DNA of 7,139 bases from Paludibacter sp. GTDB taxonomy: Bacteria; Bacteroidota; Bacteroidia; Bacteroidales; Paludibacteraceae. The DNA is taken from contig JAUSNQ010000008.1 in NCBI GenBank assembly GCA_030655595.1, positions 1-7,139 on the forward strand, read 5' to 3'. This document shows, piece by piece, positions 909 through 7,139 of this stretch. The number at the start of each line of letters is the position of its first letter. The stretch's first letter is position 1. The notes below the pieces were generated by a model. It was not told where the DNA came from. It made no database searches and worked only from the letters and a program-made list of their open reading frames with translations. Made by a program: the position numbers and the translations under genes.

Positions 909-916
909 TAGATTTG
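909..916 (+). promoter_or_regulatory. Candidate Bacteroidota-type -7 promoter element for the hsd operon
   Basis: TAGATTTG at 909-916 matches the Bacteroidota -7 consensus TAnnTTTG exactly and lies about 50 bases upstream of the hsdR start. That would give a leader of roughly 45 bases. No clear TTTG -33 box is found at the expected spacing of about 20 bases; the sequence there is TTATAGGTAG-like. This suggests a weak promoter or one that needs an activator. It is the only perfect -7 match I noticed in a spacer of this window, and it is correctly placed to drive hsdR, hsdM, the DinD-like gene and hsdS as one transcript. Confidence 0.45.
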
Positions 917-966: not shown

Positions 967-3330
967 TTGAAAGAATTCAACAAAAAAGAACTGAGCGAAT
1001 CCGATATCTGTGACAAATTCATCACGCCCGCCATCGTCGAGGCCGGATGGGATCCTATGACCCAAATCAGAAGGGAGTATCCGTTGACCCCGGGTCCGGT
1101 GATTGTGCGCGGTAATCTTTCAGCACGAAATAAAAAGAAGAGAAAGATTGCCGATTATGCTTTGTTTTGGGAGCCGGGTGTACCTATTGCGGTAGTGGAA
1201 GCAAAAGATAATAAGCACAGTGTTAGTTGTGGAATGCAACAAGCCCTCGGCTATGCTCATATCATGGATGTTCCCTCTGTTTTCAGTTCTAATGGTGATG
1301 CTTTTGCCTATCACAATAAACTTGCAGGTGATGGGGTGGATATTGAAACAGAATTATCGATGGATGAATTTCCATCGCCAGAACTTCTCTGGAAACGCTA
1401 CAAAAAATACAGAGATATTGATGAGGAGGATGAAGAGCTTATAACGCAACCCTTTTACACAGATGGTTCGGGTAAAGACCCACGTTATTATCAGCTCGAA
1501 GCCATCAATCGCACCATTGAAGCGGTTGCCAAAGGCCAGAAACGCATGTTGCTGGTGATGGCTACCGGTACAGGTAAAACATATACAACTTTTCAAATCA
1601 TCTGGCGACTGTGGAAAGCCCGGGTGGTGAAACGAGTGCTGTTCTTAGTAGATAGAAATATCTTAGCCGATCAGGCAAAGAACAATGATTTCAAACCTTT
1701 TGGGTCGGTGATGACCAAAATAAGCAACCGAAGAATTGATCCGGCCTACGAAATTCACATCGGATTGTATCAGGCCATTACCGGACCGAATGAAGAGGAT
1801 AAAATCTTTCAAAACGTTTCCAAAGACTTTTTTGATTTGGTTGTCATCGATGAGTGTCACCGCGGAAGCGCTGCCGATGATGCTTCGTGGCGGGAGATTC
1901 TGGAGTATTTTGATAACGCCATCCAGATTGGTTTGACCGCTACTCCAAAAGAGACAAAATATGTCTCCAATATCAACTATTTCGGCGATCCGGTTTATAC
2001 TTATAGCTTGAAACAAGGCATTACCGATGGATTTCTGGCTCCTTACAAGGTGGTGAAAATCGATATTGATAAAGATGTGGAAGGATGGACGCCTCCGCCG
2101 GGCATGAAAGATGATTTAGGGAATGAGGTGGAAAGTCGCACCTATAATCAGGTTGATATGGACCGGATCTTGGTACTTAATAAGCGAACCAAATTAGTTG
2201 CCGAAAGGGTGATGCAATTACTCAAAGCAACCGATCCTTTCTCCAAAACCATCATTTTCTGCGAAGATATCGACCATGCCGAACGCATGCGCAAAGCCAT
2301 TGTCAATGCTGCCGGAAGAATAGCCACCGATAATCCGAGATATGTGATGCGCATTACCGGCGACAGCGTGGAAGGAAAGGCCGAATTGGAGAATTTTGTG
2401 TTTACCGAGAGTACGTTTCCGGTTATTGCTACGACTTCCGAACTGATGACTACCGGCGTGGATGCCAAGATGTGCAAACTCATCGTGTTAGATAAGACCA
2501 TCCGCTCCATGACGACTTTCAAACAGATTATCGGTCGTGGAACCCGCATCGAAGAAGAATACGGCAAACTGTACTTCACCATCATGGATTTCAAAAAGGC
2601 GACTGAGTTGTTTCGCGATCCCGATTTCGATGGCGATCCGGTGGTTATTTATGAACCCGGTAAGGATGATGATCCTGTTCCACCCGATCCTGAATATCCG
2701 GAGTCTGATGATGATGAAACAGCAGATGACGGAGGAGATGACGGCACAAGTACAAGTCGTAAATACTACGTCGAAGGCGTTGAGGTGCATATCCTCAACG
2801 AACGGGTTGAGTATTATGGCGAGAACGGCGAGTTAATTACCGAATCGTACCGTGACTTCACAAGGAAACAAGTGCAGAAGGAATACGCAACTTTGGATGA
2901 ATTCCTGAGAACCTGGAACGATGCGGAAAAGAAACAAATCATCATCGAAAAGTTGGAAGATCAGGGCATCATCCTCGATAACCTGGCTGAGGAAGTGGGA
3001 AAGGATTACGGAGATTTCGATTTGATTTGTCATATCGCGTTCGATCAGCCGCCGCTGACCAGAAAAGAACGAGCCAACAATGTGAAGAAGCGGAATTATT
3101 TCACCAAATACGGCGAGCAGGCACGCAAGGTGCTCAATGCCCTGCTCGATAACTATGCCGATGAAGGTATTCTGTCAATAGAGAATACCCGGGTATTGAA
3201 GCTGAAGCCATTCAGCGATATGGGCACACCTTACGAAATTATCAACGAAGCTTTCGGAGGAAAGGCCAACTACGAAATGGCGCTCCGGGAGTTGGAAAAC
3301 GAACTATTTAATCAGCATAAATTAGCATGA
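967..3330 (+). CDS. hsdR: Type I restriction enzyme, R (endonuclease/translocase) subunit, EcoEI-like
   Basis: This 787-residue protein is the ATP-dependent translocase and nuclease of a type I restriction complex. It acts with two HsdM and one HsdS to cut unmethylated DNA far from the recognition site. The N-terminal PD-(D/E)xK nuclease has Asp63, then VVEAK with Glu78 and Lys80, and a QxxxY motif (Gln92, Tyr96). The superfamily 2 motor has Walker A ATGTGKT (199-205), DECH (295-298), TATP (324-327), TTGVDA (495-500) and QIIGRGTR (520-527). An acidic linker (565-593) leads to a C-terminal domain like that of EcoEI HsdR (about 600-780), which binds the methylase core. All key residues are present, so it should be active. 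The start is TTG at 967: a stop lies in frame at 955-957, and the next ATG (residue 31) would cut into the conserved N-terminus (LSESDICDKFITPAI). No Shine-Dalgarno sequence is seen. The stop overlaps the hsdM start (ATGA), implying coupled translation. Confidence 0.95.
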   Translation: MKEFNKKELSESDICDKFITPAIVEAGWDPMTQIRREYPLTPGPVIVRGNLSARNKKKRKIADYALFWEPGVPIAVVEAKDNKHSVSCGMQQALGYAHIMDVPSVFSSNGDAFAYHNKLAGDGVDIETELSMDEFPSPELLWKRYKKYRDIDEEDEELITQPFYTDGSGKDPRYYQLEAINRTIEAVAKGQKRMLLVMATGTGKTYTTFQIIWRLWKARVVKRVLFLVDRNILADQAKNNDFKPFGSVMTKISNRRIDPAYEIHIGLYQAITGPNEEDKIFQNVSKDFFDLVVIDECHRGSAADDASWREILEYFDNAIQIGLTATPKETKYVSNINYFGDPVYTYSLKQGITDGFLAPYKVVKIDIDKDVEGWTPPPGMKDDLGNEVESRTYNQVDMDRILVLNKRTKLVAERVMQLLKATDPFSKTIIFCEDIDHAERMRKAIVNAAGRIATDNPRYVMRITGDSVEGKAELENFVFTESTFPVIATTSELMTTGVDAKMCKLIVLDKTIRSMTTFKQIIGRGTRIEEEYGKLYFTIMDFKKATELFRDPDFDGDPVVIYEPGKDDDPVPPDPEYPESDDDETADDGGDDGTSTSRKYYVEGVEVHILNERVEYYGENGELITESYRDFTRKQVQKEYATLDEFLRTWNDAEKKQIIIEKLEDQGIILDNLAEEVGKDYGDFDLICHIAFDQPPLTRKERANNVKKRNYFTKYGEQARKVLNALLDNYADEGILSIENTRVLKLKPFSDMGTPYEIINEAFGGKANYEMALRELENELFNQHKLA

Positions 3331-4790
3331 GTAATGTATCAGGCGTCATCAAATCCATTCAGGATATCATGCGCAAAGATGTGGGTGTCGATGGCGATGC
3401 ACAACGTATCAGTCAGTTGGTGTGGATGTTGTTTTTGAAGATTTTCGACGACCACGAAAAAGAATTGGAACTTACCGAGGATAACTATAAATCCCCCATA
3501 CCGGAGCATTTACGCTGGCGCAACTGGGCAGCCAACGCCGAAGGAATCACAGGCGATGAGTTGCTCGATTTTGTGAACCTGCAGGTTTTTCCAACGCTGA
3601 AAACCAAGCTGAATCTGCAAAATGTAAAGGCACAGGTTATCAACAGCATGTTTCTAGATGCCTATAATTATATGAAGTCGGGTACGTTAATGCGACAGGT
3701 CATCAACAAATTAGCCGAAATTGATTTCAACACCAACAGCGACCGCCATACCTTTGGAACCATCTACGAACAGATTCTCAAAGACTTGCAAAGTGCGGGC
3801 AATGCCGGCGAATTCTATACGCCGAGAGCAGTCACCACCTTTATGGTCGACAGGGTTGCACCGCGCTTAGAAGAAACAGTGCTTGATCCTGCCTGCGGGA
3901 CCGGTGGATTTCTCTCGAATATCATCGAGTACAAACGCGATCGTTTCGTGAAATCACCTGCCGATGAAGAAATACTCCAGCAAACCATTCATGGGGTCGA
4001 AAAGAAATCGCTGCCTCACATGCTTTGCACCACCAACATGATTCTGCATGGGATTGAGTCGCCGGTGAAAATAAGGCATGACAACACCCTGAGCCGACCA
4101 TTGATCGACTACACCAACAAGGATCGGGTAGATGTGATTGTGACCAATCCGCCTTTCGGAGGCATGGAAGAAGATGGCATCGAGAACAACTTTCCGGCAT
4201 CGTATCGCACCCGCGAAACAGCCGATTTGTTCATGACCCTGATCATACATTTGTTGAAAAAAGACGGACGTGCAGCTTTGGTTTTACCCGACGGTTTCCT
4301 GTTTGGCGAAGGCATCAAAACCCGCATCAAAGAAAAACTGATGACCGAATGCAACCTGCACACCATCGTGCGACTGCCAAACGGCGTGTTTAGTCCCTAC
4401 ACCGGCATCAAAACCAATCTCTTATTTTTCACCAAAGGCACACCCACCGAGAACATTTGGTATTACGAGCATCCCTATCCCGATGGCGTGAAAAGTTACA
4501 ACAAAACCAAGCCCATGCGATTCGAAGAATTTGCGACCGAGATCGCCTGGTGGGGTAACGACGTCGACGAATTTGCCTTTCGGGTGGAAAATGAACAAGC
4601 CTGGAAAGTCACTGCGGCAGACATCAAAGCCCGCAATTACAACTTAGACATCAAGAATCCGCATGTGGGCGAGCAAATCAACCACGACCCGGAAGTGTTG
4701 TTGCAACAATATCAGGCACAACAAGAAAAAATACATGATTTACGAAATCAGATAAAAGCAATTCTGAGCGAAGCGCTCAATAACCAATAA
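3327..4790 (+). CDS. hsdM: Type I restriction-modification system, M (adenine-N6 methyltransferase) subunit
   Basis: This 487-residue protein methylates adenine at the N6 position using S-adenosylmethionine, and two copies join one HsdS to form the modification core. An N-terminal helical HsdM_N domain (about 8-130) precedes the N6-adenine methyltransferase domain. GEFYTPR (161-167) is the motif X region. DPACGTGGFL (187-196) is motif I, which binds S-adenosylmethionine. NPPF (274-277) is catalytic motif IV. The conserved block around FSPYTGIKTNLLFFTKG (355-371) is typical of HsdM. A Gln-rich helical tail (459-480) probably packs against HsdS. Length and motifs are normal, so it should be active. 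Translation starts inside the hsdR stop codon, while 19 bases separate its stop from the next gene. Order R-M-(extra gene)-S fits one operon. Confidence 0.96.
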   Translation: MSNVSGVIKSIQDIMRKDVGVDGDAQRISQLVWMLFLKIFDDHEKELELTEDNYKSPIPEHLRWRNWAANAEGITGDELLDFVNLQVFPTLKTKLNLQNVKAQVINSMFLDAYNYMKSGTLMRQVINKLAEIDFNTNSDRHTFGTIYEQILKDLQSAGNAGEFYTPRAVTTFMVDRVAPRLEETVLDPACGTGGFLSNIIEYKRDRFVKSPADEEILQQTIHGVEKKSLPHMLCTTNMILHGIESPVKIRHDNTLSRPLIDYTNKDRVDVIVTNPPFGGMEEDGIENNFPASYRTRETADLFMTLIIHLLKKDGRAALVLPDGFLFGEGIKTRIKEKLMTECNLHTIVRLPNGVFSPYTGIKTNLLFFTKGTPTENIWYYEHPYPDGVKSYNKTKPMRFEEFATEIAWWGNDVDEFAFRVENEQAWKVTAADIKARNYNLDIKNPHVGEQINHDPEVLLQQYQAQQEKIHDLRNQIKAILSEALNNQ

Positions 4791-4809
4791 CTATTTAACA
4801 ATTATTTTT

Positions 4810-5646
4810 ATGAAAAATCAAATTCAACTGTTTGAAGAAAAGAAAGTTCGTACCGCGTGGGACGAAGAAAGTGAAGAGTGGTATTTTTCCATTATTGATG
4901 TGGTGGATGTGTTGACAGAAAGTCCAAATCCACGAAAATACTGGAGTGTGTTAAAAACCCGATTGAAAAAAGAAGGAAGTGAGTTGGCTACAAATTGTAG
5001 TCAACTGAAAATGCAATCGGCGGATGGTAAATTTTACAAAACCGATGTTGTCAGCACCGAGCAACTTTTCCGCTTGATTCAATCTATTCCTTCACCCAAA
5101 GCAGAACCCTTTAAATTATGGATTGCGCAGGTAGCCAAAGAACGTTTAGACCAAATGCAGGATCCGGAATTGTCGATTAATCAGGCCATGATGGATTATA
5201 AACGCTTAGGCTATTCCGATAGCTGGATCAATCAGCGATTGAAGAGCATTGAAATTCGCAAAGATTTAACCGACGAATGGAAATCGAGAGGATTGGAAGA
5301 AGGTCTGCATTTCGCTTCCCTGACGGATATTATTTATAAAACCTGGGCAGATAAAACCGCCAAAGAATACGAGCAATACAAGGGTTTGAAGAAAGAGAAC
5401 CTGCGCGACAACATGACGAATGCCGAACTGGTATTGAACATGCTTGCGGAGCTTTCAACCAAACAAATATCAGAAACCAGCAATCCGGAAAGTATGGAAG
5501 AGCATGCGCAGGTAGCCAAGCAGGGCGGAGAAATTGCCCGCAATGCCCGTCAAGAGTTAGAAGCCAAAACCGGGAAACCGGTCGTTTCGCCGCTGAATGC
5601 CAAAAAGGGATTGCTGAACAAAAAACCAAACGAAATCAAAGAGTGA
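4810..5646 (+). CDS. BRO-N / DinD-like protein embedded in the restriction operon
   Basis: This complete 278-residue soluble protein has no signal peptide or membrane segment. Residues 1-115 look like a BRO-N (prophage antirepressor) domain: MKNQIQLFEEKKVRTAWDEE, a YFSIIDVVDVL strand-helix, KYWSVLKTRL, and the TDVVSTEQLFRLIQSIPSPKAEPFK block where such domains usually have a YxVxxxGLYxLI-like pattern. The C-terminal half resembles E. coli DinD as I remember it: YKGLKKENLRDNMTNAEL (190-207) and GGEIARNARQEL (239-250) ending in a basic tail. The length, close to DinD (274 residues), supports this. BRO-N domains are thought to bind DNA, and E. coli DinD is SOS-induced and reported to disassemble RecA filaments. 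The function here is unknown; roles in controlling the operon or limiting recombination on restricted DNA are inference. It lies 19 bases after hsdM and 14 before hsdS, all one strand, so it is very likely co-transcribed. No LexA-like box was recognised. Confidence 0.85.
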   Translation: MKNQIQLFEEKKVRTAWDEESEEWYFSIIDVVDVLTESPNPRKYWSVLKTRLKKEGSELATNCSQLKMQSADGKFYKTDVVSTEQLFRLIQSIPSPKAEPFKLWIAQVAKERLDQMQDPELSINQAMMDYKRLGYSDSWINQRLKSIEIRKDLTDEWKSRGLEEGLHFASLTDIIYKTWADKTAKEYEQYKGLKKENLRDNMTNAELVLNMLAELSTKQISETSNPESMEEHAQVAKQGGEIARNARQELEAKTGKPVVSPLNAKKGLLNKKPNEIKE

Positions 5647-5660
5647 CAAATAAACAATTC

Positions 5661-7139
5661 ATGAAGTCCTTTATCACACAACATATCGACCTCTGGACAT
5701 CCGCTCAAGCCACCAAAACCAGTGGTCGCGGCATCAGTGCCTCCAACCAGCAATTGCTCGGCATACAAAAACTCCGCGAACTTATTTTAGAACTCGCAGT
5801 AAGAGGGAAATTGGTTCCGCAGAATGCGAATGATGAACCGGCGGGGGAGTTGTTAAAGAGGATTGAAGTTGAGAAGAAAAGGTTGGTGAAAGAGGGAAAA
5901 ATTAAGAAACAAGAAATTCTTTCAGAAGTTGAAGATGATGAAAAGCTATTTGAATTGCCAGTAGGATGGGTCTTTTGTAGATTAGGTACAATTTTTAACT
6001 CAATTGTCAGTGGTGGTACACCAAGTAAAAGTAATCCCGGTTTTTGGAATGGTGATATACCATGGGCAAGTGTAAAAGACCTTGGAAAATTAAAATACAT
6101 TGAGAAAACACAAGATTATATTACCCAAAAAGGATTAGACTCAGGGAGTAAACTTGCAGAGATTGATGATGTTATTATATGTACAAGAATGGGTTTAGGT
6201 AAGATTGCTATTGCTAAGGTAAAACTTGCAATCAATCAGGACTTAAAAGCTGTAAAACTAAGTTCAAATTTAGATGTTGATTATTTCTTGTATTTCTTTT
6301 CAACATTAAAAATAATTGGTACCGGAACTACAGTAGCAGGAATCACTCAGGATAAATTAGTAAATTATCCATTTCCACTTCCCCCTCTCCCCGAGCAACA
6401 CCGCATTGTCGCCAAAGTCGATGAACTCATGGCCTTATGCGACACCTTAGAAAAAGAGCAAACCAGCAGCAATGCCGCCCACGAAACCTTGGTTGAGAAC
6501 TTGTTGGGCATCCTCACCAATGCCCGCGACACCAACGACTTTCAGGAAGCCTGGCAGCGTATCGCTGAATATTTCGATTTGCTGTTCACCACTGAACACA
6601 GCATCGACAAACTCAAACAAACCATCCTGCAATTGGCAGTCATGGGTAAATTGGTGCCGCAGAATCCGAATGATGAACCGGCAAGTGTGTTGCTGAAAAA
6701 GATTGCTGCCGAAAAGGCGAAATTGGTGAAGGAAGGAAAGATAAAGAAGCAAGTTGATTTGCCGAAGATTACAGAGGAAGAGAAGCCGTTTGAGTTGCCG
6801 AAGGGGTGGGAGTGGGTGAAGTGTCAAGATATTTGCAGCAAAATTACCGATGGAGAGCATATAACTCCAAATCGGTCTGTTTCTGGTTTTTACTTATTAT
6901 CAGCAAGAAATGTAACAAATGAAGGTATTATTTTGGAGGATGTTGATTTTGTTCCAGCTGATGAATTTGAACGAATTAGAAGAAGATGTGATCCAAATAT
7001 CGGGGATATTCTGATTTCATGTTCAGGAAGTGTTGGACGTGTTGCGTTAGTTGACAAGGACAATACTTATACTATGGTCAGAAGTGCTGCTTTGATTCGC
7101 CCTTTTTCAAATTGCTTTGATAATGAATATTTGGCAATT
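5661..7139 (+). CDS. hsdS: Type I restriction-modification system, S (specificity) subunit (3' partial)
   Basis: The frame runs from ATG at 5661 without a stop to the window edge, giving 493 residues; the end of the second recognition domain and any tail are missing. HsdS holds the DNA target for both restriction and methylation. The order is: N-terminal tail and conserved helix (1-96); target-recognition domain 1 (about 97-245), with SGGTPSKSNPGFWNGDIPWA (117-136) and GITQDKLVNYPFPLPPLPEQ (227-246); the central conserved helical region (about 240-370), including HRIVAKVDELMALCDTLE; and recognition domain 2 (from about 377), with ITDGEHITP (395-403) and GDILISCSGSVGRVAL (448-463). Two different recognition domains predict a split, asymmetric target, which cannot be read from sequence. 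Residues 35-103 repeat at 315-383. The recognition domains are visibly AT-richer than the conserved parts. The start lies 14 bases after the DinD-like gene, with no Shine-Dalgarno sequence. Family call is certain. Confidence 0.96.
   Translation, partial: MKSFITQHIDLWTSAQATKTSGRGISASNQQLLGIQKLRELILELAVRGKLVPQNANDEPAGELLKRIEVEKKRLVKEGKIKKQEILSEVEDDEKLFELPVGWVFCRLGTIFNSIVSGGTPSKSNPGFWNGDIPWASVKDLGKLKYIEKTQDYITQKGLDSGSKLAEIDDVIICTRMGLGKIAIAKVKLAINQDLKAVKLSSNLDVDYFLYFFSTLKIIGTGTTVAGITQDKLVNYPFPLPPLPEQHRIVAKVDELMALCDTLEKEQTSSNAAHETLVENLLGILTNARDTNDFQEAWQRIAEYFDLLFTTEHSIDKLKQTILQLAVMGKLVPQNPNDEPASVLLKKIAAEKAKLVKEGKIKKQVDLPKITEEEKPFELPKGWEWVKCQDICSKITDGEHITPNRSVSGFYLLSARNVTNEGIILEDVDFVPADEFERIRRRCDPNIGDILISCSGSVGRVALVDKDNTYTMVRSAALIRPFSNCFDNEYLAI
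5772..5969 (+). repeat. hsdS internal direct repeat, copy 1 (before recognition domain 1)
   Basis: This encodes residues 38-103 of HsdS, from the LILELAVRGKLVPQN helix through VEKKRLVKEGKIKKQ to FELPVGW. It matches 6612-6809 at an offset of exactly 840 bases. Over the 47 residues from 38 to 84 I count 34 identities with copy 2. The best DNA match is 5808-5842, with 33 of 35 bases identical, including a perfect 16-base run at 5827-5842. Confidence 0.9.
6612..6809 (+). repeat. hsdS internal direct repeat, copy 2 (before recognition domain 2)
   Basis: This encodes residues 318-383 of HsdS (TILQLAVMGKLVPQN through AEKAKLVKEGKIKKQ to FELPKGW) and is the second copy of the conserved module that precedes a recognition domain. 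The best DNA match to copy 1 is 6648-6682. Being in frame and in the same orientation, the two copies could recombine to exchange or delete one recognition domain without breaking the reading frame. Confidence 0.9.

Follow-up and report, generated by a model that had tools for sequence, protein, structure and literature searches.

A Bro-N/DinD-family gene between hsdM and hsdS in an EcoAI-type restriction-modification operon of Paludibacter

Organization of the locus

We describe here a 278-codon gene of the Bro-N/DinD/PDC-S13 family that lies between hsdM and hsdS in a type I restriction-modification locus of Paludibacter sp. The sequence studied, referred to here as the window, is a whole stretch of 7,139 nt from contig JAUSNQ010000008.1 (assembly GCA_030655595.1). 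On its + strand hsdR, hsdM, the 278-codon gene, and hsdS follow one another as an EcoAI-type operon of R-M-S order, and the end of a TrkA-C-domain gene and a cyclophilin-type gene lie 5' of hsdR. A first-pass annotation had noted an intact 278-residue gene on the same strand, 19 bases after hsdM and 14 before hsdS, and had proposed that it may be a fixed fourth component of a type I system, one that had gone undescribed. The gene, its strand, and its distance from hsdM agree with the coordinates below, and the 14-base gap holds for the first ATG of hsdS (5661), but not for the alternative GTG at 5643, which would overlap the stop codon of the 278-codon gene by 4 nt.

909..916, + strand: putative Bacteroidota-type -7 box TAnnTTTG, candidate operon promoter (motif scan, upstream of hsdR)
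955-962: second copy of TAnnTTTG (motif scan)
967..3330, + strand: hsdR, EcoAI/FtnUII-type restriction subunit, 787 aa (open reading frame and profile matches)
3327..4790, + strand: hsdM, methylation subunit, 487 aa, overlapping hsdR by 4 nt (open reading frame and profile matches)
4776..4809, + strand: shared leader, comprising the last hsdM codons (LNNQ-stop) and the 19-nt gap, also present before the gene of relative L001 (local alignment)
4810..5646, + strand: Bro-N/DinD/PDC-S13-family gene, 278 aa, predicted DdrC fold (open reading frame, profiles, alignment, and structure model)
4843..5133, + strand: Bro-N domain, residues 12-108, with a predicted fold matching the DdrC N-terminal domain
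5164..5571, + strand: predicted all-helical C-terminal domain, approximately residues 119-254, DinD/DdrC-like (model and family profile)
5380..5430, + strand: signature stretch K191-x-L193 ... D200-x-M202 ... E206-L207 (alignments)
5643..7139, + strand: hsdS, specificity subunit, starting at GTG 5643 or ATG 5661 and open at the window end (open reading frame and profiles)

HsdR scores 1153 bits against an NCBIfam cut-off of 550 for the EcoAI/FtnUII family. The 278-codon gene starts with ATG and its GC content (42.7%) is intermediate between those of hsdM (47.1%) and hsdS (40.3%). No copy of TAnnTTTG, which we take to be the Bacteroidota-type -7 box, is found within 120 nt upstream of it, and hsdR has one; judging from the gaps and overlaps in the sequence, the gene is probably transcribed together with the hsd operon.

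Family membership and predicted fold

The N-terminal part of the protein is a Bro-N domain as first proposed, with residues 12-108 matching PF02498 (E 6.7e-13, 49.5 bits against a gathering cut-off of 25.6). The best model overall is PADLOC PDC-S13 (PDLC04920), which aligns with residues 2-271 of 278 at 448 bits, in a library that displays no cut-off, and E. coli DinD matches this same model (2.2e-16) among three PDC-S13 models. We take PDC to stand for phage defence candidate, and the PDC names reportedly originate in a 2024 preprint by Payne et al.; the name PDC-S13 was not found in the literature searched. The window protein thus resembles PDC-S13 over its full length and the family includes DinD, but the label is that of a candidate, without a description in the library, and its members here extend down to approximately 22% identity.

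The likeness to DinD is remote. A BLASTP comparison of the two proteins is not significant (E 0.097), their identity in a multiple alignment is 22%, and a very deep split separates them in the tree, but they share the Bro-N plus helical layout, and the residues K191-x-L193 ... D200-x-M202 ... E206-L207 are invariant across 74 rows from the window protein to E. coli DinD and are partly recognizable in DdrC; invariant residues common to the two proteins are present in both 74- and 51-row alignments. The earlier description of a DinD-like C-terminus is right, with the likeness a remote one. Unlike the window gene, dinD of E. coli K-12 is not in an hsd locus, but between yicC and yicG.

AlphaFold models of the window protein and of E. 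coli DinD have the same best PDB match, the DNA-binding protein DdrC of Deinococcus, and the predicted match includes both domains and spans nearly the whole protein. The other rows of the structure search are unrelated or designed proteins, with no other Bro-N structure among them, which is no proof of absence. A single-protein sequence search against solved structures gave nothing of note (best E 0.61), and a 74-row family profile (58 rows from the window's branch and 16 DinD rows) reaches DdrC in its C-terminal region at E 1.5e-4. On its sequence the protein is a remote relative of DdrC and not a DdrC; the D. radiodurans protein, similar in predicted fold and C-terminal sequence, differs in being approximately 230 aa long and damage-induced.

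The nearest named relatives are from Paludibacter and other Bacteroidota, and the Bro-N family has at least 8000 database relatives. The best PHROG family, at 405 bits and far ahead of the others, has no known function, and the weaker matches include four antirepressor families (E 4e-7 to 5e-3) and a transcriptional regulator (E 4e-8). Profile and fold searches found no catalytic or toxin domain in the protein. Relatives are present in four of 50,697 phage records (two of them covering 80% of the query), at seven loci on viral contigs (by a pattern scan that detects close relatives only), and in 12 of 72,556 plasmid records. A phage origin as an antirepressor is considered unlikely, given how few relatives these phage records and viral contigs contain. 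We also note an IMG/VR contig classed as viral (L146, 4384-6708) on which an HsdM gene is followed by a Bro-N/PDC-S13 relative.

Genomic contexts of relatives

A scan of species genomes gave 474 relatives, the best 80 of which (73-93% identical) were examined; 50 of these loci are flanked on each side by 3 kb or more, and 30 have less on at least one side. HsdM or HsdS is encoded within approximately 3 kb of six of these 80 nearest relatives, and five are in same-strand hsd loci. Two Treponema loci (L038 and L040) have the order hsdM-Fic-gene-hsdS and L041 starts in the same way before its contig ends, while L067 has hsdM-gene-hsdS, L080 has hsdM upstream before the contig ends, and the hsdM neighbor at L011 is on the opposite strand. 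In L038, L040, and L067 there are 0 nt between the gene end and hsdS. Homologues in the window's branch are thus mostly outside hsd loci, the outcome that the first-pass annotation had itself named as contradicting its proposal.

The other contexts are varied. A relative 93% identical to the window gene (L001) lies downstream of the gene for ribosomal protein L17, and four (L010, L012, L013, and L014) have a common neighborhood, which at L010 consists of an EcoRI-type methylase and GmrSD_N/HNH. Neighbors of at least 100 aa are on the same strand in 58 of 73 cases upstream and 55 of 72 downstream, and no Pfam family has more than five members among the same-strand neighbors. Two of the 80 copies (L020 and L054) lack a single open frame across the match. 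A Bacteroidota-type promoter box is present within 120 nt upstream of 28 of 77 relatives, compared with 4.6 in shuffled sequence.

In the Bacteroidota and Spirochaetota samples, hsd context was read from loci flanked by approximately 1.5 kb (30 of the 48 Bacteroidota rows and all 13 Spirochaetota rows). An N6-methylase (PF02384) is within 3 kb in two of 37 Bacteroidota genomes, among the matches listed; one (G251) has the order M-S-gene, and the other (G223) has a frame-broken copy. At L114 there is a weak HsdM-like match alongside, which we left unclassified. Of 38 carrier genomes searched, all contributing to the first 40 loci, 11 have no Methylase_S (HsdS) match. For HsdM at E 1e-40, 28 of 33 of these carriers have no match and the other five have one at 34-48% identity; these absences are soft because many of the genomes are metagenome assemblies by title.

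Several single loci are described here for their own sake. Truncated Bro-N relics at L002 (2771-3037, residues 1-90, 56% identical to the window protein) and L077 (8001-8246, residues 1-80, 65%) are directly 5' of full-length copies, a pattern such as a fresh insertion next to an older copy would leave. The Arcobacter cloacae plasmid pACLO (L184) has a type I-B CRISPR-Cas operon in which a 66%-identical Bro-N gene (4995-5891), in the same orientation, separates cas4 from cas1b. The relatives at L005 (8001-8837) and L007 (2256-3092) lie between like-sized genes, which at L005 encode a chorismate-binding enzyme and a thiamine pyrophosphate (TPP) enzyme; from the L005 domains, the flanks of both read as menF-like and menD-like, that is, as a menaquinone operon.

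Inheritance and selection

Similarity between the copies is discordant with that of the associated HsdM proteins, and does not support the idea that the gene's phylogeny follows that of HsdM. Between the window and the Treponema locus L040, the HsdM proteins are 21% identical and the 278-aa protein and its relative are 73% identical, while L067 and L163 have HsdM proteins at 39% and Bro-N/DinD-family proteins at 20%. Two pairs do move together (HsdM and gene identities of 71 and 84% for L067-L080, and 94 and 89% for L172-L173), and the correlation is 0.34 over 36 non-independent pairs.

The ratio of nonsynonymous to synonymous substitution rates (dN/dS) between the window copy and L001 is 0.048, with dS at 1.02 and near saturation, and three other pairs have values of 0.065, 0.028, and 0.388. 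By this measure the 278-codon reading frame is not a chance one, and the strong purifying selection points to a function of its own. Constraint is strong in the window-L001 pair though only one partner is in an hsd locus, and the function is therefore seemingly untied to HsdM and HsdS.

The window and L001 leaders, covering the 34 nt before the ATG, align with two mismatches and one gap, and the local alignment stops there. By eye, this leader recurs in none of the other 78 relatives compared. It is suggestive, from this one pair, of the left edge of a transferred unit; a unit linked to hsd may have moved to the L17 site, or the unit may instead have given hsdM its last codons.

DinD relatives and the hsdM-hsdS junction

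The wider DinD family is associated with type I loci more often than the window's branch. In 249 Pseudomonadota genomes (the phylum of the L063 genome) an E. coli DinD query finds 20 places in 19 genomes, and six of these are within 3 kb of HsdM or HsdS compared with 0.14 expected (P 4e-9, uncorrected for kinship). Three have the order hsdM-dinD-hsdS (L163, L172, and L173, the last two being close kin), and in the others dinD is before hsdS (L174), after hsdS (L176), or before hsdM (L171). The tie of the wider family to hsd loci is non-random, and this and the link to DNA-damage proteins, through the DdrC fold and the DinD family, are the parts of the original interpretation that stand; its fixed fourth component does not.

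In Bibersteinia trehalosi Btr190I, dinD is fused to the 5' end of hsdS and the site is still methylated (PMC4996451, 2016), such that "undescribed" is too strong a term for an arrangement published with an active methylase in a family that PADLOC lists as PDC-S13. As in the window, a DinD-family unit immediately precedes HsdS in the type I locus of Btr190I, but that unit, which the authors call dinD, is fused to HsdS in an M-S-R order, whereas the window gene is separate, belongs to another branch, and is in an R-M-S order. The S gene of Btr190I and the open reading frames on either side of it lack homology to their counterparts in sister strains, a difference attributed by the authors to replacement by recombination (PMC4996451); this suggests transfer along with hsdS as one entry route. 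A PADLOC specificity-subunit model aligns with E. coli DinD over the first 267 of its 717 positions, as expected of DinD-HsdS fusions. Literature searches found no paper on DinD embedded in restriction-modification and, by title, none on Bro-N, restriction-modification, and defense that concerns this gene, and passages of PMC3702460, PMC4437046, and PMC13092281 contain nothing concerning it.

Viewed from the hsdM side, the junction is variable. An hsdM like that of the window occurs at 50 places, spread over 46 of 247 Bacteroidota genomes, and none of the 30 loci examined of these 50 (with approximately 1.5 kb of flank) carries the 278-aa gene. Eleven of the 247 genomes (G009, G054, G061, G109, G155, G179, G214, G223, G247, G251, and G267) have both a window-like hsdM and a relative of the gene, on different contigs or far apart. 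HsdM reaches at least 50% identity at 25 loci (L082-L105 and L107), of which 22 have no other open reading frame of at least 100 aa before hsdS, and three have other cargo: SLFN/AlbA_2 (L092), DUF559 (L096), and an NTP-transferase plus a HepT-like gene (L107). Two loci with HsdM at 47% identity (L106 and L190) encode a 338-aa protein 15 nt after hsdM, the L106 copy having no Pfam match, and this is followed by an open reading frame whose HFFNDGNKR stretch (in L106) looks like a motif that we take to be of Fic/Doc type. Of three plasmid loci viewed, hsdS directly follows hsdM in E. coli, a short hypothetical gene intervenes in P. aeruginosa, and a gene for an RNA-binding domain lies between hsdM and hsdS in Aliarcobacter (L189). 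With this variety of cargo, the hsdM-hsdS junction of EcoAI-type loci is a slot open to different genes.

Interpretation and alternatives

We favor, with moderate confidence, a model in which the gene is a horizontally mobile and self-sufficient accessory of the PDC-S13 family that binds DNA ends and single-stranded DNA, and that was recruited by an EcoAI-type operon. The product would be a two-domain protein composed of Bro-N and a helical DinD/DdrC domain, encoded by a mobile gene that settled at the hsdM-hsdS junction and is now probably cotranscribed. Judging from fold and homology, a dimer would most likely bind single-stranded DNA and broken ends, bridging or shielding them as DdrC does. 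Because type I enzymes cut both strands of invading DNA, and at times of the host's own, end binding would matter in an hsd operon; the protein could keep broken host DNA together or protected, or could prevent end processing.

Several considerations weigh against this model. DNA binding is predicted from fold and homology; a likeness of fold is no proof of function, and helical domains readily give middling matches. The protein scores 19.3 bits against the cut-off of 150 for the NCBIfam DdrC equivalog NF033622, and the full-length root-mean-square deviation from DdrC is large (9.4), with the domains arranged differently. For DinD, the reported action is on RecA filaments (cited in PMC10602874). 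Many relatives are in operons unlinked to DNA breaks, and the position within hsd may be without functional significance. The tie to hsd loci is also weak in the window's branch: two of 40 loci are near HsdS compared with at most 0.31 expected, a slight excess (P 0.04), and in the Spirochaetota sample one of 10 carrier genomes has its copy near a methylase (L149, the same place as L040).

Among the alternatives, we give some credence, well short of favoring it, to a stand-alone antiphage gene within the operon, which would sense phage- or restriction-made ends and trigger its own defense independently of restriction. It is consistent with PDC-S13 as the best family, with relatives beside EcoRI-type methylase and GmrSD_N/HNH, after Fic in the Treponema hsd locus L040, and between cas4 and cas1b in Arcobacter, and with the SLFN/AlbA_2, DUF559, and NTP-transferase plus HepT-like cargo of the same slot elsewhere; however, the protein has no recognizable catalytic or toxin domain, many copies are in housekeeping surroundings, and a candidate list under a name not found in the literature searched is no test. 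A DinD-like antagonist that keeps RecA off restriction-made ends and damps SOS or the repair of cut DNA is unlikely. The distant homology and the best structural match shared with E. coli DinD speak for it, as does the citation of DinD as a RecA inhibitor, but they do so across 22% identity and a very deep split, and in S. pneumoniae removal of a dinD-like gene together with island regulatory genes lacked the large effect on transformation that followed removal of the element (PMC10602874). We are more doubtful still that Bro-N acts as a repressor or antirepressor of the hsd operon: the weaker PHROG matches and the precedent of RptR, a repressor carried by a type I locus (PMC12255303), are offset by the family of no known function that outscores those matches, the rarity of relatives in phages, the binding of DdrC without sequence specificity, the position of the gene as third of four and far from the promoter, and the occurrence of the same protein in unrelated operons.

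Placement between genes of many unrelated operons and the truncated relics beside full copies are what would be expected of a neutral or selfish passenger tolerating operon junctions, which we nevertheless consider improbable given dN/dS values of 0.03-0.07 in three of four pairs (0.39 in the fourth) and the hsd enrichment of the DinD branch. The fixed fourth component, required with HsdM and HsdS, is highly improbable, and for the window's branch it is contradicted by distribution and HsdM discordance. In its favor are the shared strand and tight spacing (with the copies that abut hsdS at L038, L040, and L067), the three Pseudomonadota loci of order hsdM-dinD-hsdS, the pairs L067-L080 and L172-L173 that move together, and the dinD-hsdS fusion that works as a specificity subunit (PMC4996451). 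Nonetheless, the gene is absent from all 30 window-like hsdM loci examined, just five of 80 relatives are in same-strand hsd loci, identities are discordant, and HsdS or HsdM matches are lacking in many carriers, and we infer from this distribution that the protein is not a subunit required by HsdM and HsdS.

Extending our accessory model beyond this locus, we raise tentatively the idea that the DdrC-fold end-binding proteins of the DinD/PDC-S13 group are general "end-keepers", recruited repeatedly, in one branch after another, by immune operons whose products cut or process ends of DNA (at hsdM-hsdS junctions, cas4-cas1, and EcoRI-methylase/GmrSD), where they would decide what becomes of the ends made. 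DinD is named from the SOS response and to our knowledge has no settled role; linking it and the large Bro-N family to the DdrC fold offers a testable activity, the binding of DNA ends and single-stranded DNA, and the repeated arrival between hsdM and hsdS makes the fate of DNA ends after restriction a question that can be asked. For this window alone the meaning is modest, an accessory gene rather than a new subunit. A type I locus with DarTG2 and RptR is similar in having extra defense genes inside the hsd operon, but there the insertion is a toxin-antitoxin pair between hsdS and hsdR, and its proteins are unrelated to that of the window gene (PMC12255303).
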